Positions 3,676 to 31,097 of a stretch of DNA of 64,000 nt are shown piece after piece. The notes beneath the pieces are model-generated. The model was not told the DNA's origin. It ran no database searches and saw nothing but the letters and a program-made list of their open reading frames with translations. Within the stretch, counting starts at the first letter, position 1. Every line of letters starts with the position of its first letter. A program made the position numbers and the translations under genes. The stretch spans positions 1 through 64,000 of the forward strand of contig NZ_CAJYMB010000087.1 in assembly GCF_913775985.1 (NCBI RefSeq). Direction: 5' to 3'. The DNA is from an uncultured Pluralibacter sp. GTDB lineage: Bacteria; Pseudomonadota; Gammaproteobacteria; Enterobacterales; Enterobacteriaceae.

Positions 3676-5322
3676 ATGAACGGGGCTCAGTGGGTGGTAC
3701 ATGCGTTGCGAGAGCGGGGTGTCGATACGGTTTTCGGCTATCCGGGTGGCGCAATCATGCCAATTTACGATGCATTGTATGACGGCGGCGTCGAACACCT
3801 GCTGTGCCGGCACGAACAGGGGGCCGCGATGGCCGCGATCGGCTATGCGCGGGCCACCGGTAAAACCGGTGTATGCATGGCCACCTCCGGCCCGGGGGCA
3901 ACCAATTTAATTACCGGGCTGGCGGATGCGCTGCTCGACTCTGTGCCGGTGGTTGCTATCACCGGACAGGTCTCTTCGCCCTTTATCGGCACCGATGCTT
4001 TTCAGGAAGTTGATGTGCTCGGCCTGTCTCTCGCCTGCACCAAGCACAGCTTTCTGGTGCAGTCCATGGAAGAACTGCCGCGCATCATGGCTGAGGCTTT
4101 TGAGCTTGCGAACTCGGGTCGTCCGGGCCCGGTTCTGGTTGATATCCCGAAAGACATTCAGCAGGGCAGCACCAGTTTCGAGCCCTGGCTGTCCACCGTT
4201 GATGAGCCGTTTTCATTCCCGCACGCCGATGTCGCTCAGGCAAAACAGATGATTGCCGCTGCCGGCAAACCCGTTCTGTATGTGGGCGGCGGTGTTGGCA
4301 TGGCGCAGGCGGTGCCCGCGCTGCGCGAGTTCCTTGAAGTCACCCGGATGCCGGCAACCTGCACGTTAAAAGGGCTGGGCGTAGTTGACGCTGACTATCC
4401 CGGGTATCTGGGCATGCTGGGCATGCACGGCACCAAAGCCGCGAACCTCGCCGTCCAGCAGTGTGATTTACTGATTGCCGTCGGCGCACGCTTCGATGAC
4501 CGGGTGACCGGCAAGCTGAATACCTTCGCGCCCGACGCAAAAGTTATCCACATCGATATCGATCCTGCGGAACTCAACAAGCTGCGCCAGGCGCATGTTG
4601 GCTTACAGGGCGATTTAAACGCTATTCTGCCCGCGCTTCAGCAGCCGTTGGCGATTGATGGCTGGCGACAGCACGCGGCGGATATGCGTCGCGAGTTCGA
4701 ATGGCGCTACGATCACCCGGGCGAGGCTATCTACGCGCCCCTGTTGTTAAAGCAGCTCTCCGCGCGTAAAGCGAAAGATGCCGTTGTCACCACCGACGTT
4801 GGCCAGCATCAGATGTGGTCCGCGCAGCACATGACCTATACGCGGCCGGAAAATTTTATTACCTCCAGCGGCCTCGGCACGATGGGCTTTGGTTTACCGG
4901 CCGCCGTCGGCGCACAGGTTGCACGCCCGGACGATACGGTTATTTGTATCTCCGGTGACGGCTCTTTCATGATGAACGTGCAGGAGCTCGGCACCGTTAA
5001 GCGCAAACAGCTGCCGCTGAAGATTGTGTTGCTGGATAACCAGCGTCTGGGAATGGTTCGCCAGTGGCAGCAACTCTTCTTCCAGGAGCGTTACAGCGAA
5101 ACTACGCTCACCGACAATCCCGACTTCCTCACGCTGGCCAGCGCCTTCGGCATTCCGGGCCAGCATATCACCCGTAAAGACCAGGTTGAAGCCGCGCTCG
5201 ACACCATGCTGAACAGCAAAGGGCCCTATTTGCTTCACGTCTCAATCGACGAGCTTGAGAACGTCTGGCCTCTGGTGCCGCCCGGCGCCAGCAATGCAGA
5301 AATGCTGGAGAAATTATCATGA
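3676..5322 (+). CDS. ilvG: Acetolactate synthase II large subunit IlvG (intact)
   Basis: The 548-aa catalytic subunit of valine-insensitive acetohydroxyacid synthase II. It condenses pyruvate with pyruvate or 2-oxobutyrate, the first common step to valine and isoleucine. The thiamine-diphosphate fold is complete: an N-terminal Pyr domain with the glutamate-containing [10 protein letters not shown] near residue 45, a central FAD-binding domain, and the GDGS...N metal/ThDP motif at about 427-454. I start at 3676 (MNGAQWVV) as in E. coli; another in-frame ATG lies 6 nt upstream. The frame is open throughout, unlike E. coli K-12, whose ilvG is frameshifted. The 3' end overlaps ilvM by 4 nt. Confidence 0.96.
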
Positions 5323-5582
5323 TGCAACATCAGGTCGCTGTGCAGGCCCGCTTTAACCCTGAAACGTTAGAACGCGTGCTGCGCGTGGTGCGCCACCGCG
5401 GATTTCAGATCCGCGCCATGAATATGGAAACGGCTGCCGACGCGCAAAATATAAATATTGAATTGACCGTTGCCAGCCTCCGCCCGGTCGAATTACTGTT
5501 TAGCCAGCTAAGTAAGCTGGTCGACGTGGCCTGCGTCGAGATTTTGCAACACGCAACAACATCACAACAAATCCGCGCCTGA
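5319..5582 (+). CDS. ilvM: Acetolactate synthase II small subunit IlvM
   Basis: An 87-aa regulatory subunit, identical in length to E. coli IlvM and containing a single ACT-like domain. The ATG overlaps the ilvG stop by 4 nt (ATGA), indicating translational coupling that suits the stoichiometric partners. IlvM stabilises and activates the IlvG dimer but does not confer valine feedback inhibition. The 17 nt to ilvE carry AGGAAG, the ilvE ribosome-binding site. Confidence 0.95.
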
Positions 5583-5599
5583 GCGCAAAAGGAAGAAAA

Positions 5600-6526
5600 A
5601 TGACGACGAAAAAAGCTGATTACATCTGGTTCAACGGTGAGATGGTTCCGTGGGGCGAGGCCAAAGTACACGTGATGTCACACGCGCTGCACTACGGTAC
5701 ATCTGTGTTTGAAGGTATTCGCTGCTACGACTCGCACAAAGGCCCGGTGGTTTTCCGCCACCGCGAGCACATGCAGCGCCTGCGCGATTCAGCCAAAATT
5801 TACCGTTTCCCGGTGTCTCAGAGCGTCGATGAATTAATGGAAGCCTGCCGTGAAGTCATCCGTAAAAATAATCTCACCAGCGCCTACATCCGCCCGCTGG
5901 TTTTTGTCGGCGACGTGGGCATGGGCGTTAACCCGCCGGACGGCTACAGCACCGATGTGATTATTGCCGCCTTCCCGTGGGGCGCCTATCTCGGTGCAGA
6001 AGCGCTGGAGCAGGGCATTGACGCAATGGTCTCTTCCTGGAACCGCGCCGCGCCAAACACCATTCCGACGGCGGCAAAAGCCGGTGGTAACTATCTTTCG
6101 TCCCTGCTGGTCGGCAGCGAGGCGCGCCGCCACGGCTATCAGGAAGGTATCGCGCTGGATGTGAACGGCTACATTTCCGAAGGCGCGGGTGAAAACCTGT
6201 TTGAAGTGAAAGATGGCATCGTGTTCACCCCGCCGTTCACCTCTTCCGCGCTGCCGGGCATTACCCGCGATGCCATCATCAAGCTGGCAAAAGATCTGGG
6301 TATTGAGGTTCGCGAGCAGGTGCTGTCGCGCGAGTCGCTGTACCTGGCTGACGAAGTCTTTATGTCCGGTACCGCCGCGGAAATAACCCCGGTGCGCAGC
6401 GTTGACGGTATTCAGGTGGGCGAAGGCCGCCGCGGTCCGGTGACCAAACGCATTCAGGAAGCATTCTTTGGCCTCTTCACCGGTGAAACGGAAGATAAAT
6501 GGGGCTGGTTGGATCAGGTTAATTAA
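5600..6526 (+). CDS. ilvE: Branched-chain amino-acid aminotransferase IlvE
   Basis: A 308-aa fold-type IV PLP enzyme (E. coli 309 aa). It transfers amino groups between glutamate and the 2-oxo acids of valine, leucine and isoleucine. The PLP-binding lysine is K160 in [11 protein letters not shown], and the family signature EGAGENLF follows at about 194-201. The N-terminus ([16 protein letters not shown]) agrees with E. coli. It is the third gene of ilvGMEDA, and 61 nt separate it from ilvD. Confidence 0.97.
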
Positions 6527-11041: not shown

Positions 11042-12517
11042 ATGGCTAACTACTTCAATACACTGAACCTGCGCCAGCAGCTGGCGCAGCTGGGCAAATG
11101 TCGCTTTATGGCGCGCGACGAATTCGCCGATGGCGCGAGCTACCTTCAGGGTAAAAAAGTGGTCATCGTCGGCTGCGGCGCGCAGGGCCTGAACCAGGGC
11201 CTCAATATGCGTGATTCCGGTCTGGATATCTCTTACGCTTTGCGCAAAGAAGCGATTGCTGAGAAGCGCGCTTCCTGGCGTAAAGCCACTGAAAACGGTT
11301 TTAAAGTCGGCACCTATGAGGAGCTGATCCCGCAGGCGGATCTGGTGGTTAACCTGACGCCGGACAAGCAGCACTCTGATGTTGTGCGCTCGGTACAGCC
11401 GCTGATGAAAGACGGTGCGGCGCTGGGCTACTCTCACGGTTTCAACATCGTGGAAGTGGGCGAGCAGATCCGTAAAGACATCACCGTCGTGATGGTAGCG
11501 CCGAAGTGCCCGGGCACCGAAGTGCGCGAAGAGTACAAGCGCGGCTTCGGCGTGCCGACGCTCATCGCCGTTCACCCGGAAAACGATCCGAAAGGCGAAG
11601 GCATGGCGATTGCCAAAGCCTGGGCTGCGGCCACCGGCGGTCACCGCGCGGGCGTGCTGGAATCTTCCTTCGTTGCCGAAGTGAAATCTGACCTGATGGG
11701 CGAGCAGACTATTCTGTGCGGTATGCTGCAGGCGGGTTCTCTGCTGTGCTTCGACAAGCTGGTGCAGGATGGTACCGATCCGGCCTATGCCGAAAAACTG
11801 ATTCAGTACGGCTGGGAAACCATCACCGAAGCGCTGAAGCAGGGCGGCATCACCCTGATGATGGACCGCCTCTCCAACCCGGCGAAACTGCGCGCCTACG
11901 CGCTGTCTGAACAGTTGAAAGAGATCATGGCGCCGCTGTTCCAGAAGCACATGGACGATATCATTTCCGGTGAATTCTCCTCCGGCATGATGGCGGACTG
12001 GGCCGAAGATGATAAGAAACTGCTGACCTGGCGCGAAGAGACCGGCAAAACTGCTTTTGAAACCGCGGCGCAGTACGAAGGTAAAATTGGCGAGCAGGAG
12101 TACTTCGACAAAGGCGTGCTGATGATTGCAATGGTGAAAGCCGGTGTTGAACTGGCCTTTGAAACCATGGTAGATGCCGGCATCATCGAAGAGTCTGCCT
12201 ACTACGAATCGCTGCACGAGCTGCCGCTGATTGCAAACACCATTGCCCGCAAGCGCCTGTATGAAATGAACGTGGTTATCTCTGATACCGCCGAGTACGG
12301 TAACTACCTGTTCTCCTACGCCTGCGTGCCGCTGCTGAAAGAGTTTATGACCACGCTGCAGGCGGGCGATCTGGGTAAAGCCATCGCCGAAGGCGCGGTA
12401 GACAACGCCCAGCTGCGCGATGTGAACGAAGCCGTTCGCGGCCATGCCATTGAGCAGGTGGGTAAAAAACTGCGCGGCTACATGACCGATATGAAGCGTA
12501 TCGCCGTCGCGGGATAA
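11042..12517 (+). CDS. ilvC: Ketol-acid reductoisomerase IlvC (class II)
   Basis: A 491-aa NADPH-dependent enzyme, the long class II form typical of enterobacteria, with a duplicated knotted C-terminal domain. It isomerises and reduces acetolactate or acetohydroxybutyrate to the dihydroxy acid. The Rossmann motif [10 protein letters not shown] is at 44-53. The frame extends 90 nt further upstream, but the ATG at 11042 is preceded by GAGGAA and begins [10 protein letters not shown] as in E. coli. It is transcribed alone, divergent from its activator ilvY. Confidence 0.98.
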
Positions 12518-12531
12518 TATACAGTGAAGGT

Positions 12532-12567
12532 AAAGCCCGGCAGGTGTTCGCATCCGCCGGGCTTTTT
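12532..12567 (+). terminator. ilvC terminator
   Basis: The stem AAAGCCCGGC...GCCGGGCTTT has a 14-nt loop and is followed by T-rich sequence. It lies between convergent ilvC and ppiC and can also act on ppiC transcripts. Confidence 0.85.
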
Positions 12568-12568
12568 A

Positions 12569-12931
<363 letters not shown>

Positions 12932-22438: not shown

Positions 22439-23569
22439 GTGAAAGTATTGACTGTATTTGGCACCCGGCCCGAAGCCATCAAAATGGCGCCGCTGGTTCA
22501 CGCGCTGGCAGAAGACCCCTATTTTGAGGCGAAAGTCTGTGTTACCGCGCAGCATCGCGAAATGCTCGATCAGGTTCTCCAGCTGTTTTCTATTACGCCA
22601 GATTACGACCTCAATATTATGAAAGCAGGTCAGGGGCTTACTGAAATCACCTGCCGGATACTTGAAGGTTTGAAGCCGGTTCTGGAATCGTTTAAACCCG
22701 ACGTAGTGCTGGTACATGGCGATACCACCACGACGCTGGCGGCGAGCCTGGCGGCCTTTTACCAGCGTATTCCGGTCGGGCACGTCGAAGCGGGGCTGAG
22801 GACGGGCGATATGCTTTCCCCCTGGCCGGAAGAGGCTAACCGCACCCTGACGGGACACCTGGCAAAATACCACTTTGCGCCTACGGAAAACTCGCGGCGT
22901 AACCTGCTGACGGAAAACCTGCGCGACGGCGACATCACCGTCACCGGCAATACCGTGATCGACGCACTGCTGTGGGTACGCGATCGGGTGCTGAGTGACG
23001 ACGCGCAGCAGGCGGAAATGGCCGCGCGCTACCCGTTTTTCACCGGCGATAAAAAAATGATCCTGGTCACCGGCCACCGCCGCGAAAGCTTTGGTGAAGG
23101 CTTTGAGCACATTTGTCACGCGCTGGCCGATATTGCTGCCGCCCATCCCGAGGTGCAGATTGTTTATCCGGTGCACATGAATCCCCACGTCAGGGAGCCG
23201 GTGACGCGCACTCTCGACCACATTGATAACGTGATTCTCATCGAGCCTCAGGAGTATCTGCCCTTTGTCTGGCTGATGAACCACGCGTGGATCATTTTGA
23301 CCGACTCCGGCGGCATCCAGGAAGAAGCCCCTTCTCTCGGGAAGCCGGTGCTGGTGATGCGCGATACCACCGAGCGGCCGGAAGCGGTAGATGCCGGCAC
23401 CGTGAAGCTGGTAGGCACCGATCGCCAGCGCATCATTGATGAAGTGACGCGCCTCCTCACCGACGAAGAGGCGTATCACGCAATGAGCCGCGCGCACAAT
23501 CCATACGGCGACGGTAAGGCCTGCAGCCGCATCCTCGCCGCACTTAAGCACAATCAGGGACAACGATGA
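22439..23569 (+). CDS. wecB: UDP-GlcNAc 2-epimerase (non-hydrolysing) WecB
   Basis: A 376-aa GT-B fold epimerase making UDP-ManNAc. Catalytic acids correspond to D95 (VHGDTTTT), E117 (HVEAGLRTG) and E131 (WPEEANR), with the GHRRES histidine near 213. The start is GTG at 22439, an enterobacterial feature of this gene. The stop overlaps the wecC ATG by 4 nt. Confidence 0.96.
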
Positions 23570-24828
23570 GCTTCTCTACCATTTCAGTGATCGGCCTTGG
23601 CTACATCGGACTGCCGACGGTGGCCGCTTTTGCTTCACATCGAAAGCGGGTTATCGGCGTCGATATCAATCAAAACACCGTGGATACCATTAACCGCGGG
23701 GAGATTCATATCGTTGAACCGGATCTGGATAAGGTAGTGAAAGCGGCGGTCTCTGACGGCTATCTGCAGGCCTGCACGGTGCCGGTTGAGGCTGATGCCT
23801 ACCTGATTGCCGTCCCGACGCCGTTTAAAGAACAGCACGAACCTGACATGGCTTATGTTGAGGCCGCGGCCAGATCCATTGCGCCCGTACTGACGCCGGG
23901 CGCGCTGGTGATCCTGGAGTCCACCTCACCGGTGGGCACCACCGAGCAGATGGCCGAGTGGCTTGCGGATATGCGCCCGGACCTCACGTTCCCCCAGCAG
24001 GCGGGGGAGCAGGCGCAGGTGAATATTGCCTACTGCCCGGAGCGCGTGCTGCCGGGGCAGGTGATGGTGGAACTGATTAATAACGATCGGGTGATTGGCG
24101 GCATGACGCCGGTATGTTCCGCCCGCGCCAGCGAGCTGTATAAAATTTTCCTCAAGGGCGAGTGCATCGAAACCAACGCCCGCACCGCCGAAATGTGCAA
24201 ACTCACCGAAAACAGCTTTCGCGATGTGAACATCGCCTTTGCCAATGAACTGTCGCTGATCTGCGCCGATCAGGGCATTGACGTCTGGGAGCTGATTCGC
24301 CTGGCGAACCGCCACCCCCGGGTCAATATCCTCAAGCCGGGCCCCGGCGTCGGCGGGCACTGCATTGCGGTCGACCCGTGGTTTATCGTAGCCCAGAACC
24401 CCGAGCAGGCGCGCCTGATCCGCACCGCCCGCGAGGTTAACGACCACAAGCCGCACTGGGTGATGAATCAGGTTAAAGCCACCGTTGCGGACTGTCTGGC
24501 CGAAAGCGGCAGGCGCGCTGACGATGTCCGCATCGCCTGCTTCGGCCTGGCTTTTAAGCCCGATATTGACGATCTGCGCGAGAGTCCGGCAATGGAGATT
24601 GCGCAGCTGATCGCCGACTGGCACCGGGGCGAAACGCTGGTGGTTGAACCCAACGTCCATCATCTGCCGAAAAAACTGGAAGGGAAATGCACCCTCGCAA
24701 GCCTTGAGTCCGCGCTGCAAAGTGCCGACGTGCTGGTGATGCTGGTGGATCATAAAGCGTTTAAAACAGTCAGCGGCGATGCCGTTTCTCAACGCTATAT
24801 TGTTGATACCAAAGGCGTGTGGCGGTGA
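23566..24828 (+). CDS. wecC: UDP-ManNAc dehydrogenase WecC
   Basis: A 420-aa UDP-glucose/GDP-mannose dehydrogenase family enzyme oxidising UDP-ManNAc to UDP-ManNAcA with NAD+. The N-terminal Rossmann motif GLGYIGLP is at 10-17 and the catalytic cysteine lies in [12 protein letters not shown] near residue 266. It overlaps wecB by 4 nt. Downstream, where other enterobacteria have rffG and rffH, only 33 nt separate it from wecD. Confidence 0.96.
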
Positions 24829-24861
24829 GCCGCTTCCTGAATATTCGCCCGGAGCATCGCC

Positions 24862-25539
24862 GTGACCCTGCGCGCCCGCATTGAGCCGCTGAGCTGGGAG
24901 AGCGCTTTCTTCGGCATTAACAGCGCTATCCTGCGCCCTGACGACGCCGCGCCGGACGTAATGGCGGAATCGCTGGCGCCCTGGGCGCGGGTACAGGCCA
25001 AAATTGCCGCCCGGGATAGCGCGCAGCTGGACGCGCTGCAGCAGCTCGGATTCCGGCTGGTGGAAGGGGAAGTGGATTTTTGCCTTGCTATTGGCAGTGC
25101 CGCGGTCGATCCGCAGGCCGCTGTTGCTACGCAAGACGATATTCCCGCACTGAGATCGCTGGCCGCAGGAATATTTTCTCAAAGCCGCTTTCGCGCACCC
25201 TGGTACGATCCGCAGGACAGCGGCCGCTTTTACGCGCAGTGGATTGAAAACGCCGTGCGCGGCACCTTCGATCACCAGTGCCTGGTTTTTCGCGGTGCCG
25301 GCGGTGACGTTCGCGCCTTTGTTTCCCTGCGCCAGCTTAACGCGTCCGAAGCGCGCATCGGCCTGCTGGCCGGCTGGGGCGCGGGCGAAATGCTTATGCA
25401 GGCGGCTGTCCACTGGGCGCAGCAGCGCGGGTTGACCGCGCTGCGCGTTGCAACTCAGGCCGGCAACACCGCCGCACAGAACCTTTACATAAAAAGCGGC
25501 GCGGCCATTGCGGGCACCGCTTACTGGCTATACAGGTGA
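24862..25539 (+). CDS. wecD: dTDP-fucosamine acetyltransferase WecD
   Basis: A 225-aa GNAT N-acetyltransferase that acetylates dTDP-4-amino-4,6-dideoxygalactose to dTDP-Fuc4NAc for ECA. The C-terminal GNAT fold includes [11 protein letters not shown] and the acetyl-CoA segment [11 protein letters not shown]. The start is GTG at 24862 with GGAG 9-12 nt upstream, as in E. coli. Codons 1-7 overlap, in another frame, a short open stretch resembling the end of rffH (24861-24884). It is 4 nt upstream of wecE. Confidence 0.94.
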
Positions 25540-25543
25540 AACG

Positions 25544-26674
25544 ATGATCCCTTTTAACGCCCCGCCGGTTGTCGGCAGCGAGCTGGACTATATGCAGGCC
25601 GCCATGAACAGCGGCAAACTCTGCGGCGATGGCGGCTTTACCCGTCGCTGCCAGCAGTGGATGGAGCAGCGCTTTGGCAGCGCGAAGGTGCTGCTGACGC
25701 CCTCCTGCACCGCCTCGCTGGAGATGGCGGCGCTGCTACTGGACATTCAGCCGGGTGATGAAGTCATCATGCCGAGCTACACCTTCGTCTCTACCGCTAA
25801 CGCCTTCGTTCTGCGCGGGGCGAAAATTATCTTTGTCGACGTGCGGCCCGATACGCTGAATATCGACGAAACGCTGATCGAAGCGGCGATCACGGATAAA
25901 ACCCGCGCTATCGTGCCGGTCCACTACGCGGGGGTCGCCTGCGAAATGGACGCGATCATAGCCATCGCCGACCGCCATAATCTGTTTGTGGTCGAGGATG
26001 CTGCGCAGGGCGTGATGTCCACCTATAAAGGAAAAGCGCTCGGCACCATCGGCCATATCGGCTGCTTCAGCTTTCACGAAACCAAAAACTACACCGCGGG
26101 CGGAGAAGGTGGCGCTACGCTTATCAACGATCGCGCGCTGGTGGAGCGGGCGGAGATTATCCGTGAGAAGGGCACTAACCGCAGCCAGTTTTTCCGCGGC
26201 CAGGTGGACAAATACACCTGGCGCGATATCGGCTCCAGCTACCTGATGGCGGATCTGCAGGCCGCATACCTGTGGGCGCAGCTGGAGGCGGCAGACCGCA
26301 TTAACCAGCAGCGCCTGAGCCTGTGGCAGACCTACTATGACGCCCTGAAGCCGCTGGCCGATGCCGGACGCATCGCGCTGCCTACCATTCCAGCGGAGTG
26401 CGTCCACAACGCCCACATGTTTTATATCAAGCTGCGCGACGAAGCCGATCGCAGCCGCCTGATCGCCTGGCTGAAAGAGGCCGAGATCCTGGCCGTGTTC
26501 CACTACATCCCTCTGCACTCTTCTCCTGCGGGTGAGGCATTTGGCGAGTTTCGCGGTGAGGACCGCGTCACCACGCGCGAGAGCGAGCGCCTCCTGCGCC
26601 TGCCGCTGTTCTACAACCTCTCCCCGGTAAATCAGCGGACGGTGATCAACTCTCTGCTGAGCTATTTCGCCTGA
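25544..26674 (+). CDS. wecE: dTDP-4-amino-4,6-dideoxygalactose transaminase WecE
   Basis: A 376-aa DegT/DnrJ/EryC1 family sugar aminotransferase, the same length as E. coli WecE, with the PLP lysine at K181 (HETKNYTAGGEGG). It aminates dTDP-4-keto-6-deoxyglucose, the product that RffG would normally supply. Initiation at 25544 (MIPFNAPPV) rather than 36 nt upstream follows E. coli. The stop is 1 nt before wzxE. Confidence 0.96.
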   Translation: MIPFNAPPVVGSELDYMQAAMNSGKLCGDGGFTRRCQQWMEQRFGSAKVLLTPSCTASLEMAALLLDIQPGDEVIMPSYTFVSTANAFVLRGAKIIFVDVRPDTLNIDETLIEAAITDKTRAIVPVHYAGVACEMDAIIAIADRHNLFVVEDAAQGVMSTYKGKALGTIGHIGCFSFHETKNYTAGGEGGATLINDRALVERAEIIREKGTNRSQFFRGQVDKYTWRDIGSSYLMADLQAAYLWAQLEAADRINQQRLSLWQTYYDALKPLADAGRIALPTIPAECVHNAHMFYIKLRDEADRSRLIAWLKEAEILAVFHYIPLHSSPAGEAFGEFRGEDRVTTRESERLLRLPLFYNLSPVNQRTVINSLLSYFA

Positions 26675-26675
26675 T

Positions 26676-27926
26676 ATGTCGCTGGCAAAAGCGTCCATCT
26701 GGACGGCGGCCAGCACGCTGGTCAAAATCGGCGCCGGGCTGCTGGTGGTTAAGCTGCTGGCGGTCTCGTACGGACCTTCCGGTATCGGCCAGGCGGGCAA
26801 CTTTCGCCAGCTGGTGACGGTGCTCGGCGTGCTGGCGGGCGCGGGCATTTTTAACGGCGTGACGAAATACGTGGCCCAGTACCGCGACGATCCGCAGCAG
26901 CTGCGCAGCGTGGTCGGCACCTCGTCGGCCATGGTGCTCGGCTTCTCAACGCTGCTGGCGATTGCGTTCGTATTAGCGGCTGCTCCGGTCAGCCAGGCGC
27001 TGTTTGGCCACGATCGCTATCAGGGCCTGGTACGCCTGGTGGCGCTGGTGCAGCTGGGCATTGCGTGGGCAAACCTGCTACTGGCGCTGCTAAAAGGCTT
27101 TCGCGATGCCGCCGGCAATGCGCTGGCGCTGATGATCGGCAGCGCTATCGGCGTAGCGGCCTATTTGCTCTGCTGGAGGATCGGCGGCTACCAGGGCGCG
27201 CTGCTGGGGCTGGCGCTGGTGCCGGCGCTGGTGGTGGTTCCGGCGGCCGTGATGCTGGCCCGCCGGGGGGCGATACCTTTTGCCTGGCTGCGGCCGCGCT
27301 GGGATAATCTGCTGGCAGGCCAGCTCGGCAAGTTTACGCTGATGGCGCTTATCACTTCTGTTACGCTGCCGGTGGCCTACGTCATGATGCGAAATCTGCT
27401 GGCGTCCCGCTACAGCTGGGACGAGGTGGGGATCTGGCAGGGCGTCAGCAGCATCTCCGATGCCTATCTTCAGTTCATTACCGCATCATTCAGCGTCTAC
27501 CTGCTGCCCACGCTGTCGCGGCTCAGTGAAAAAAAAGAGATTACGCGCGAGATTGGCAAGGCGCTAAAATTTGTCCTGCCTGCGGTTGCCGCCGCCAGCC
27601 TGACGGTCTGGCTGCTGCGCGATGTAGCTATCTGGCTGCTTTTTTCGTCTCAGTTTACCGCCATGCGCGATCTGTTTGCCTGGCAGCTGGTTGGCGATGT
27701 CCTGAAGGTGGGCGCCTACGTCTACGGTTATCTGGTGATCGCCAGGGCTTCGCTGCGACTGTACATCCTGGCTGAAATTAGCCAGTTTGCGCTACTGACC
27801 GCGTTCTCGCACTGGCTGATCCCGGTTCACGGTGCGGCAGGTGCCGCGCAGGCTTACATGGCGACCTATATCGTCTATTTTGCGCTGTGCAGCGGCGTAT
27901 TCCTTATCTGGCGTAAACGGGCATGA
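26676..27926 (+). CDS. wzxE: ECA lipid III flippase WzxE
   Basis: A 416-aa polytopic protein of the MOP/Wzx flippase family, equal in length to E. coli WzxE, with about 12 hydrophobic segments. It moves undecaprenyl-PP-trisaccharide across the inner membrane to the periplasm. It starts directly after wecE, and its stop overlaps the wecF ATG by 4 nt. Confidence 0.96.
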
Positions 27927-29002
27927 CAGCACTGATACACGTACTGGGATCGGATATCCCACACCACAACCTGACCGTCCTGCGGTTTTTTAACGACGAG
28001 CTGGCGGCGGGCAGCGAGCACGCCCGCGAGTTTATGGTGGTGGGCGACGAGCGGGCGCTGGCAGAAGGTAATTCGGCCCTGCGGCTGCGCTGCTTTGCCA
28101 GCAAGAAGGCGCTGGCGCAGGCGGTAGTTGCACTGGCGAAAGCGGATCGCCAGCAGCGCTTCTTTTTCCATGGCCAGTTCAATACCAGCCTGTGGCTGGC
28201 GCTGCTGTCGGGCGGCATCCGGCCCGCGCAGTTTCGCTGGCATATCTGGGGCGCGGATCTGTATGAAGTCTCCCGGGGCCTCAAGTTTCGCCTTTTTTAT
28301 CCGCTGCGCCGGATGGCGCAGGGGCGCGCGGGCTGCGTATTCGCGACCCGCGGCGATCTTCACTATTTTTCTGCCCGTCATCCCAACGTGCGCACGGCGC
28401 TACTCTATTTCCCAACCCGCATGGATCCGGCCTTGAATAACCTCGCGCCCGCACCGCGCGAGGCCGGGCCGCTGACGATTCTGGTGGGCAACTCCGGGGA
28501 TCGCAGCAATGAGCATGTTGCGGCCCTGCGCGCGATCCACCAGCAGTTTGGCGATACCGTTAACGTGGTGGTGCCGATGGGCTATCCGGACAACAATGAC
28601 GCCTATATCGAGGAAGTGCGCGCCGCCGGCGCATCGCTGTTCAGCGGTGAACGTCTGCAGGTGCTGCGCGACAGGCTGGCGTTTGATGATTATCTGACGC
28701 TCCTGCGACGCTGCGATTTAGGTTATTTCCTGTTTCCGCGCCAGCAGGGTATCGGTACTCTGTGCCTGCTTATTCAGGCGGGCATTCCCTGCGTGCTGAA
28801 TCGCGAGAATCCCTTCTGGCAGGACATGGCCGAACAGAACATCCCGGTACTGTTCAGCGGCGATCCGCTGGACGAGGCAACGGTCCGCGAGGCGCGCCGC
28901 CAGCTGGCGAGCGTGGACAAAACCCAAATTGCCTTTTTCCGTCCCAACTATATGCAGCCCTGGCATCGGGCGTTGCGCATTGCCGCAGGTGAAGAGTCAT
29001 GA
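27923..29002 (+). CDS. wecF: TDP-Fuc4NAc:lipid II Fuc4NAc transferase WecF
   Basis: A 359-aa GT56-family glycosyltransferase (E. coli 359 aa) that adds Fuc4NAc to lipid II, completing the ECA trisaccharide (lipid III). It is soluble or membrane-associated, with no transmembrane helix. Four-nt overlaps with wzxE upstream and wzyE downstream indicate tight coupling. Its donor, dTDP-Fuc4NAc, depends on the missing rffGH step. Confidence 0.95.
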
Positions 29003-30345
29003 GTCTGATGCAGTTTACCGGCCTGTTTACGGTCTGGCTGTTTGCCTCTCTGTTTATCGCGACCCTGACATACCGCGAGTTTCGCCGGGTGCGCTTCAAT
29101 TTTAACGTCTTCTTTTCGCTTCTCTTTTTACTGACCTTCTTCTTCGGCTTTCCTTTGTCGATGACGCTGGTGTTCCGCTTTGACGTAGGTATCGCCCCAC
29201 CGGAGGTGCTGCTGCAGGCTCAGCTGTTTGCCGCCTGTTTTTACGCCGTCTACTACGTGACCTACAAAACCCGCCTGCGCAGCGCGTCCGCGCAGGGCGA
29301 GCGGCGGCCGCTATTTACGATGAACCGCGTGGAAACGCATCTGATGTGGTTTCTGCTGGCGGCGATGGCGCTGCTGTGCGTCGGCATTTTCTTTATGCAT
29401 AACGGCTTCCTGCTGTTTAAGCTGCATTCCTACAGCCAGATATTTTCAAGCCAGGTTTCCGGCGTAGCCCTGAAGCGCTTTTTCTACTTCTTCATTCCCG
29501 CGATGCTGGTGATCTACTTTCTGCGCCAGGACAGCAGGGCGTGGATCTTCTTTCTTATCAGCACCGTGGCCTTTGGGCTGCTGACTTACGTTATCGTCGG
29601 CGGTACGCGGGCGAACATCATCATCGCTTTCGCCATTTTTCTGTTTATTGGCATTATTCGCGGCTGGATCTCGCTGTGGATGCTGGCGGCGGCGGGCGTG
29701 CTGGGGATTGTGGGCATGTTCTGGCTGGCGCTTAAGCGCTATGGTCTTAACGTCAGCGGTGACGAAGCTTTTTACACATTCCTCTACCTGACGCGCGATA
29801 CTTTCTCACCGTGGGAGAACCTGGCCCTGCTGCTGCAAAACTACGATAAAATTGAGTTTCAGGGGCTGGCGCCTATCGTGCGCGATTTTTACGTGTTCAT
29901 CCCGGGCTCTTTGTGGCCGGACCGCCCGACGATGGTGCTGAATACGGCAAACTACTTTACCTGGGAAGTGCTGAATAACCATTCGGGCCTGGCTATCTCC
30001 CCCACGCTGATTGGATCGCTGGTGGTGATGGGCGGAATGTGGTTTATTCCCCTCGGCGCGATTGTCGTCGGGCTGATTATCAAATGGTTCGACTGGCTGT
30101 ATCAGCAGGGCCTGCAGGAGACGAATCGCTATAAAGCGGCGATCCTGCACAGTTTCTGCTTTGGGGCGATCTTTAACATGATCGTGCTGGCAAGAGAGGG
30201 GCTTGATTCCTTTGTTTCACGGGTAGTCTTTTTTATGGTGATTTTCGGGCTGTGCCTGCTGATTGCCAAATTGCTTTACTGGCTGCTGGATAGCGCGGGG
30301 CTGATTCACCAGCGCCCGGGCGCGACGCGGCAACCTCTGGTCTGA
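28999..30345 (+). CDS. wzyE: ECA polymerase WzyE
   Basis: A 448-aa inner-membrane protein with about 11 hydrophobic segments and a large periplasmic loop near residues 260-330 (E. coli 450 aa). It polymerises ECA trisaccharide repeats at the periplasmic face, working with WzzE. It overlaps wecF by 4 nt and lies 11 nt before wecG. Confidence 0.95.
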
Positions 30346-30356
30346 CGGGAAAATAG

Positions 30357-31097
30357 ATGACGGAACTCAATGCTGCCCCGCTGTACAGCATTCGCGGGCT
30401 GCAGCTGATCGGCTGGCGGGATATGCAGCACGCGCTGAACTACCTCTTCGCCGACAATAATATTAAGCAGGGCACGCTGGTGGCGATCAACGCGGAAAAA
30501 GTGCTCACTACGGAAGATAATGCCGAGGTGAGGGCGCTGATGGATGACGCCGAGTTTAAGTACGCCGACGGCATCAGCGTGGTGCGCTCCATTCGCAAAA
30601 AATATCCGCAGGCGAACGTCTCGCGGGTGGCGGGTGCCGATCTTTGGGAAGCAATAATGGCCCGCGCAGGCAAAGAGGGTACGCCGGTGTTTCTGATTGG
30701 CGGCAAAGCCGAGGTGCTGGCAGAAACTACCGCGCGGCTGCGCAAGCAGTGGAACGTTAACATCGTCGGCAGCCAGGACGGTTACTTCACTGCCGAGACG
30801 CGGGATGCGCTGTTTGAACGCGTCCGCCAGAGCGGGGCAAAAATTGTGACCGTGGCGATGGGCTCTCCGAAACAGGAGCTGCTGATGCGCGACTGCCGGC
30901 GCGTGCATCCCCGGGCGCTGTATATGGGCGTTGGCGGTACCTACGACGTGTTCACCGGGCGCGTGAAGCGCGCGCCGCGCGTCTGGCAGAAGCTCGGCCT
31001 GGAGTGGCTGTACCGCCTGCTGTCTCAGCCGAGCCGCATCACGCGACAGCTGCGCCTGCTGCGCTACCTCCGCTGGCATTATACTGGCCGCCTCTAA
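30357..31097 (+). CDS. wecG: UDP-ManNAcA transferase WecG
   Basis: A 246-aa GT26 (WecG/TagA/CpsF) glycosyltransferase, the same length as E. coli WecG, adding ManNAcA to lipid I. Conserved blocks seen are ADGISVVR (about 63-70), FLIGGK near 110 and VAMGSPKQE near 165. It ends the wec operon; I saw no clear hairpin terminator in the 203 nt before yifK. Confidence 0.96.

Follow-up and report, generated by a model that had tools for sequence, protein, structure and literature searches.

In the ECA operon of an uncultured Pluralibacter sp., the genes rffG and rffH are absent from between wecC and wecD, and comparison with related loci indicates that an ancestral rffGH pair was most likely lost in this lineage. 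Within the window (the whole 64,000-nt stretch of DNA analyzed here), all ten wec genes are present in the order wecA-wzzE-wecB-wecC-wecD-wecE-wzxE-wecF-wzyE-wecG, and each of the ten proteins scores above its curated NCBIfam cut-off (Table 1). By direct reading, wecC ends in TGG CGG TGA (stop codon at 24826-24828), and only 33 nt lie between this stop and the wecD GTG at 24862. A tblastn search of the window with E. coli RffG and RffH returned chance matches only (best E value, 0.22). The E. coli operon, otherwise of the same gene order, has rffG (355 aa) and rffH (293 aa) inserted after wecC and before wecD; in the window, wecC and wecD are adjacent with no RmlA or RmlB between them, which is the rffGH-less type of arrangement. 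The junction yielded no promoter in a promoter scan, and its predicted RNA fold was not more stable than those of shuffled sequences (z = 1.39). The observation in an earlier note on this DNA, that rffG-rffH are missing while wecD, wecE, and wecF are intact, is therefore correct, and its reading was mostly reasonable, with an interpretation that is partly supported by the analysis given below.

Table 1. Features of the wecC-wecD junction and of the neighboring wec genes (positions in the window)
Feature	Coordinates	Strand	Evidence or remark
wecB, UDP-GlcNAc 2-epimerase	22439..23569	+	TIGR00236, 581.9 bits
wecC, UDP-ManNAc dehydrogenase	23566..24828	+	NF008286, 820.9 bits; 83% identity to E. 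coli WecC
19-codon open frame, probable rffGH deletion remnant	24825..24884	+	GTG over wecC stop to TGA inside wecD
33-nt wecC-wecD spacer	24829..24861	+	18/33 in register with last 33 nt of P. gergoviae rffH
GGAG, Shine-Dalgarno-like for wecD	24851..24854	+	same place as rffH GGAG in 32/39 rffGH-bearing loci
wecD (rffC), dTDP-Fuc4N acetyltransferase, GTG start	24862..25539	+	NF008212, 321.5 bits; E. coli WecD aligned from residue 1
wecE, dTDP-4-keto-6-deoxyglucose transaminase	25544..26674	+	TIGR02379, 709.3 bits
wzxE	26676..27926	+	NF011679, 775.6 bits
wecF, Fuc4NAc transferase	27923..29002	+	NF002754, 695.7 bits
wzyE	28999..30345	+	NF002820, 826.9 bits
wecG	30357..31097	+	NF002980, 432.8 bits

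The substrate of WecE is described as the product of RffG (PMC7439462), and RffH/RffG and the RmlA/RmlB of the O-antigen locus are described as partly redundant (PMC7439462, PMC12212991). We propose that the loss of rffGH is tolerated because the WecE precursor can come from RmlA/RmlB encoded elsewhere. In the account that we favor, and which as a whole we consider reasonably probable, the lineage of the window, congeneric with Pluralibacter gergoviae, would have started from a standard wec operon, in which rffG-rffH separate wecC from wecD. The pair would then have been deleted after the split from P. gergoviae, in an event that probably began near the rffG start (over the wecC stop) and ended some 33 nt short of the wecD start. 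The end of rffH would have been left as a decaying spacer that still supplies the GGAG ribosome-binding site and the GTG start of wecD, and a 19-codon frame across the junction may couple the translation of wecC and wecD. The dTDP-4-keto-6-deoxyglucose for WecE would be made by RmlA/RmlB encoded elsewhere, typically at the O-antigen locus.

The starting point of the earlier note was the frame CGT GAC CCT GCG CGC CCG CAT TGA at 24861-24884, which reads RDPARPH followed by a stop codon over the wecD GTG and is open upstream, together with the statement that E. coli RffH ends in RARPRQY and a stop codon in the same offset over the wecD start. Both statements are accurate, and the frame is in fact longer than claimed: it opens at a GTG at 24825, overlapping the wecC stop, and runs for 19 codons. 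In P. gergoviae, rffG starts at the corresponding place, with GTGAGTAAAATT over the same wecC stop, and the open frame of the window extends from there to the rffH stop position. In E. coli and P. gergoviae, the frame that overlaps the wecD start in this offset is the rffH tail. As sole evidence of a deletion, however, the open frame is weak because its end is set by wecD codons. The RDPARPH tail was likewise rejected as evidence of a scar: the same bases are wecD codons in another frame, so that the tail is not diagnostic. A TGA at the rffH stop position is found in 21 of the 40 rffGH-less loci, the window included, and in two Escherichia loci (L033 and L041) all of CCCGTCCGCGCCAGTATTGA is preserved downstream of sequence without likeness to rffH (9/33 each). 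Since the seven codons would be kept by wecD conservation alone, a test for a scar must rest on the 33 nt upstream of wecD and not on the codons that overlap it.

P. gergoviae (G001) is the only other genome of the window's genus in the comparison set. Its WecD is 76% identical to that of the window, and WecC, WecD, WecE, and WzxE joined are 89% identical. Between its wecC and wecD, P. gergoviae carries rffG-rffH, and it has a second rmlBA between galF and gnd. In a quick maximum-likelihood tree of WecC+WecD+WecE+WzxE with 82 rows (80 loci, the window, and one E. coli), the window pairs with P. gergoviae with an SH-aLRT of 100, and the pair belongs to a starred group of 8 rows, of which all 7 besides the window bear rffGH. 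The earlier note had named a lineage that never had rffGH in this operon as grounds against a deletion; the window instead falls among rffGH-bearing rows. Counting the window and the 80 loci together (81 in all), both genes are present in 39, neither in 40, and rffG only in 2 (both Kluyvera), in a sample that leans to near relatives because the best 80 of the 178 relatives found were taken. The rffGH-less state requires at least 16 changes on the tree, or 12 if only starred branches are trusted, counts that by themselves fit gain as well as loss. An ancestral loss in the lineage of the window is nevertheless the simplest and most likely reading of these comparisons, since P. gergoviae has both genes and the tree places the window among rffGH-bearing rows. 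Loss rather than gain is also argued for by the constant position and overlaps of rffGH wherever the pair occurs, and by two loci (L059 and L069) that keep pieces of both genes.

These two loci, with a Raoultella terrigena-type junction, resemble the window in that rffGH is deleted, an open frame links the rffG start with the rffH stop, and the wecD GTG is kept. In both, a 78-nt wecC-wecD gap, just upstream of position 4501 in each locus, holds a clear 34-codon rffG'-'rffH fusion frame, which in L069 reads VRTILVTG...GYGQYLLDLVRVRPRQY followed by a stop codon, with the start of rffG fused in frame to the end of rffH. Unlike them, with their plain rffG 5' and rffH 3' ends, the window has a junction of 33 nt that is much more diverged. 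Another locus with a 78-nt gap at that position (L038), which groups with an rffGH-bearing Raoultella in the tree, has a more decayed frame and may also be a decayed scar.

To what extent the 33 nt of the window resemble the end of rffH depends on how the comparison is made. In register with the end of P. gergoviae rffH, 18 of 33 positions are identical (p = 0.00086 against 127,934 33-mers of the window, both strands; p = 0.0134 against the 374 33-mers with GGAG at the same place). The consensus of 39 rffH tails agrees with the spacer at 17 of 33 positions (p = 0.0034; 0.064 given GGAG), and the profile score against the same 39 tails gives p = 0.014 (0.147 given GGAG). Across the 16-kb ECA region of P. 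gergoviae, 27 of 31,936 placements of the spacer reach 18 identities and five forward ones exceed it; within the rffGH span, the in-register site is the sole forward placement with at least 18 among 1,894. Most of the signal comes from the final 11 nt of the spacer: the first 22 nt alone show no significant likeness to the rffH tail (p = 0.29), and neither does the spacer minus GGAG (p = 0.11). When the 33 nt are aligned freely and locally with the rffGH span, they score no better than shuffles (p = 0.91). The profile score of the window is not exceptional either, as control loci without a clear scar reach similar values; the seven other rffGH-less loci of this kind with a gap of at least 33 nt give p values of 0.007 (L038), 0.022 (L093), and up to 0.42. 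A chimera of rffG 5' and rffH 3' sequence was also tried (score 19; p = 0.002, or 0.043 given GGAG) and set aside, because its breakpoint falls at position 1 and it adds nothing beyond the rffH part. The likeness to rffH thus rises weakly above chance.

Two further lines are independent of the likeness of the spacer: (i) the fusion frames of L059 and L069 and (ii) the distribution of GTG at the wecD start. Of the 39 rffGH-bearing loci, 38 have GTG at the projected wecD start. Among the 40 rffGH-less loci, 8 have it, namely five with a -4 wecC overlap, the two scars L059 and L069, and the window. The GGAG in rffH position is found in 6/40 rffGH-less versus 32/39 rffGH-bearing loci. In a different history, the loss was real but the 33 nt do not come from rffH: wecC and wecD would first have overlapped directly, and a new spacer with a selected ribosome-binding site would have arisen afterward. 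Yokenella (L020), next to the window's set in the tree, has such a -4 wecC/wecD overlap, and wecD starts with GTGA in the window as in five loci with such an overlap (L020, L035, L057, L071, and L072), whereas GTG-start loci that bear rffGH show GTGC or GTGT. The nonsignificant free local alignment and the similar profile scores of other unscarred loci point the same way. Against this history stand the 18/33 identities in register with the end of P. gergoviae rffH, the GGAG at a place where few rffGH-less loci have it, and an open frame that joins the rffG start to the rffH stop, and we consider it rather unlikely. An origin of the spacer as a remnant of rffH is, on these sequence comparisons, weakly to moderately supported, and we regard a deletion scar as likely rather than proven.

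The genome of the window (G000) is a 4.78-Mb draft in 160 contigs, 98.55% complete and 3.41% contaminated, with at least one large hole, and this could suggest that rffGH exist in the organism and were dropped at the wecC-wecD junction during assembly. Yet the junction is continuous, both flanking genes are intact, and 33 nt of sequence of its own lie between them; a collapse of two rmlBA copies would presumably break the contig, and the same arrangement is found in 39 of 100 genomes of the family. We consider such an artefact extremely improbable.

The state of the assembly also bears on the source of the WecE precursor. According to the earlier note, the missing activities must come from another locus; in this genome, family searches of the assembly found neither rmlA nor rmlB. 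A search with PF00483 returned three proteins, GlgC and GalU by NCBIfam and a third of 456 aa that we take to be GlmU, none of which (0/3) reaches the RmlA cut-off. No match at the level of RmlB was found, the nearest likeness to RffG being GalE at 26% identity. The region of P. gergoviae that holds the second rmlBA carries alkA, udk, galF, rmlB, rmlA, gnd, hisF, hisD, and hisG. Three stretches around this O-antigen/his region, which between them cover about 44 kb of the 65 kb separating C1:333000 from the interior of hisG, were compared with the genome of the window, with 40 out of 86 to 142 initial candidates scored for each stretch; the middle of the 65 kb, with the O-antigen genes, was covered by the RmlA and RmlB family searches only. 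No orthologous match to the three stretches was found among the candidates scored. Positions C1:333000-352000 gave one 71-nt match, and the 10.6 kb that begin at udk and end beyond galF gave four pieces, none orthologous-looking (about 760 nt; 396 nt at 70% at the GalU gene; and two of less than 150 nt). The gnd-to-his stretch matched at 83-90% only from inside hisG outward, starting at base 1 of contig C145, which opens with a hisG fragment; its other scored matches were two on contig C97 in HisD-like genes (80% and 71%; less than 240 nt) and three of 30-44 nt. The two HisD-family proteins of contig C97 (L157) lie at 5108-6280 and 11392-12576, about 5 kb apart; they were rejected as the gene of the his operon, being about 37% identical to P. 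gergoviae HisD.

The conclusion that the genome lacks rmlBA was therefore rejected, since the assembly lacks sequence flanking the expected place on either side and the absence of rmlBA from it is not readable as absence from the organism. The O-antigen locus of this genome is probably not assembled, and we predict that rmlBA lies in the missing region. If the organism instead had no dTDP-glucose pathway at all, wecD, wecE, and wecF would be idle and ECA synthesis would stop at lipid II. Such a reading would fit the finding that no rmlA or rmlB in the assembled contigs scores above cut-off. However, the missing sequence includes not only the stretches flanking the expected rmlBA but also galF and most of the his operon, with C145 breaking inside hisG, and WecD, WecE, and WecF are intact and score above their cut-offs. 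In addition, G106 (L158, L159), the sole other genome among the 39 rffGH-less ones without rmlA or rmlB found, suggests an assembly gap too: this 99%-complete draft, with adjacent wecC and wecD, has only two NTP-transferases, neither of which is GalU- or GalF-sized, so that a gap is likely there as well. A genome with no such pathway is thus very unlikely in our judgment.

To place the window among its relatives, 159 genomes of its family were surveyed (wecC E ≤ 1e-150, wecD E ≤ 1e-30, RmlA E ≤ 1e-60, and RmlB E ≤ 1e-70). Both wecC and wecD were found in 102 of the 159, with wecD alone at these limits in G025 and G029; G080 and G107, with the two genes on different contigs, were dropped, leaving 100 genomes. 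In 39 of these neither rffG nor rffH lies between wecC and wecD, in 54 both do, in 5 only rffG, and in 2 only rffH. The arrangement of the window is therefore common in the family and not unusual. Both rmlB and rmlA occur elsewhere in 37 of the 39 rffGH-less genomes, the exceptions being the genome of the window and G106, while among the 54 rffGH-bearing genomes 44 carry no rmlB or rmlA at a further site, 7 carry both, and 3 carry a second rmlA. O-antigen/his markers were present within the 12-20 kb around rmlA in 24 of the 37 genomes (galF or gnd in 23, wzz and hisF in one more) and absent from 13; for G111 and G141, one of two rmlA places was inspected. Among the genomes with a one-gene operon, rmlA is found elsewhere in 5/5 rffG-only genomes and rmlB in 2/2 rffH-only genomes.

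Wec operons without rffGH are already known in print for Cronobacter and Dickeya. The ECA1 type of Cronobacter, described as "missing rffG and rmlA2", has 10 genes instead of 12, as in the window; it belongs to a different genus, and the description of it mentions no junction scar (PMC4599207). In Dickeya, the wec cluster is described as ten ORFs from wecA to wecG without rffG/rffH in 51 of 54 strains (PMC7877592). The wec operons of E. coli and P. gergoviae differ from that of the window in having rffG and rffH. At title and abstract level, we found no survey of rffGH loss across the family.

As a single case, the window is ordinary; of more interest is the wider pattern, in which rffGH loss recurs and a second rmlBA often lies at the O-antigen locus. 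It seems to us an evenly balanced proposition that the wec operon of Enterobacteriaceae has lost rffGH on about a dozen occasions or more, wherever there is a second rmlBA, and that the invariant ECA has then come to depend on enzymes often encoded in the variable O-antigen locus, with exchange of O-antigen clusters perhaps limited to those carrying rmlBA; the window would be one more case, with a decaying scar. Dependence of this "constant" antigen on the O-antigen locus may thus be frequent, and loss or exchange of the O-antigen cluster is predicted also to affect ECA and the use of undecaprenyl phosphate in such lineages. A practical caution is that ECA synthesis would be wrongly judged incomplete if annotation stopped at the wec operon.

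Some operons show intermediate states. The gene rffG is kept and rffH lost in two Kluyvera loci (L036 and L039) and in the five genomes G023, G105, G114, G142, and G151, and the presence of rmlA elsewhere in all five of these genomes suggests a stepwise loss. The reverse state, with rffH kept and rffG absent, is seen in G103 (L153) and G148 (L154), both with rmlB elsewhere. Finally, one record titled Chryseobacterium sp. 18061 (L031; CACSKA010000013.1) contains an enterobacterial wec operon that is sister to a Citrobacter-titled record in the tree and is probably mislabelled or contaminated.
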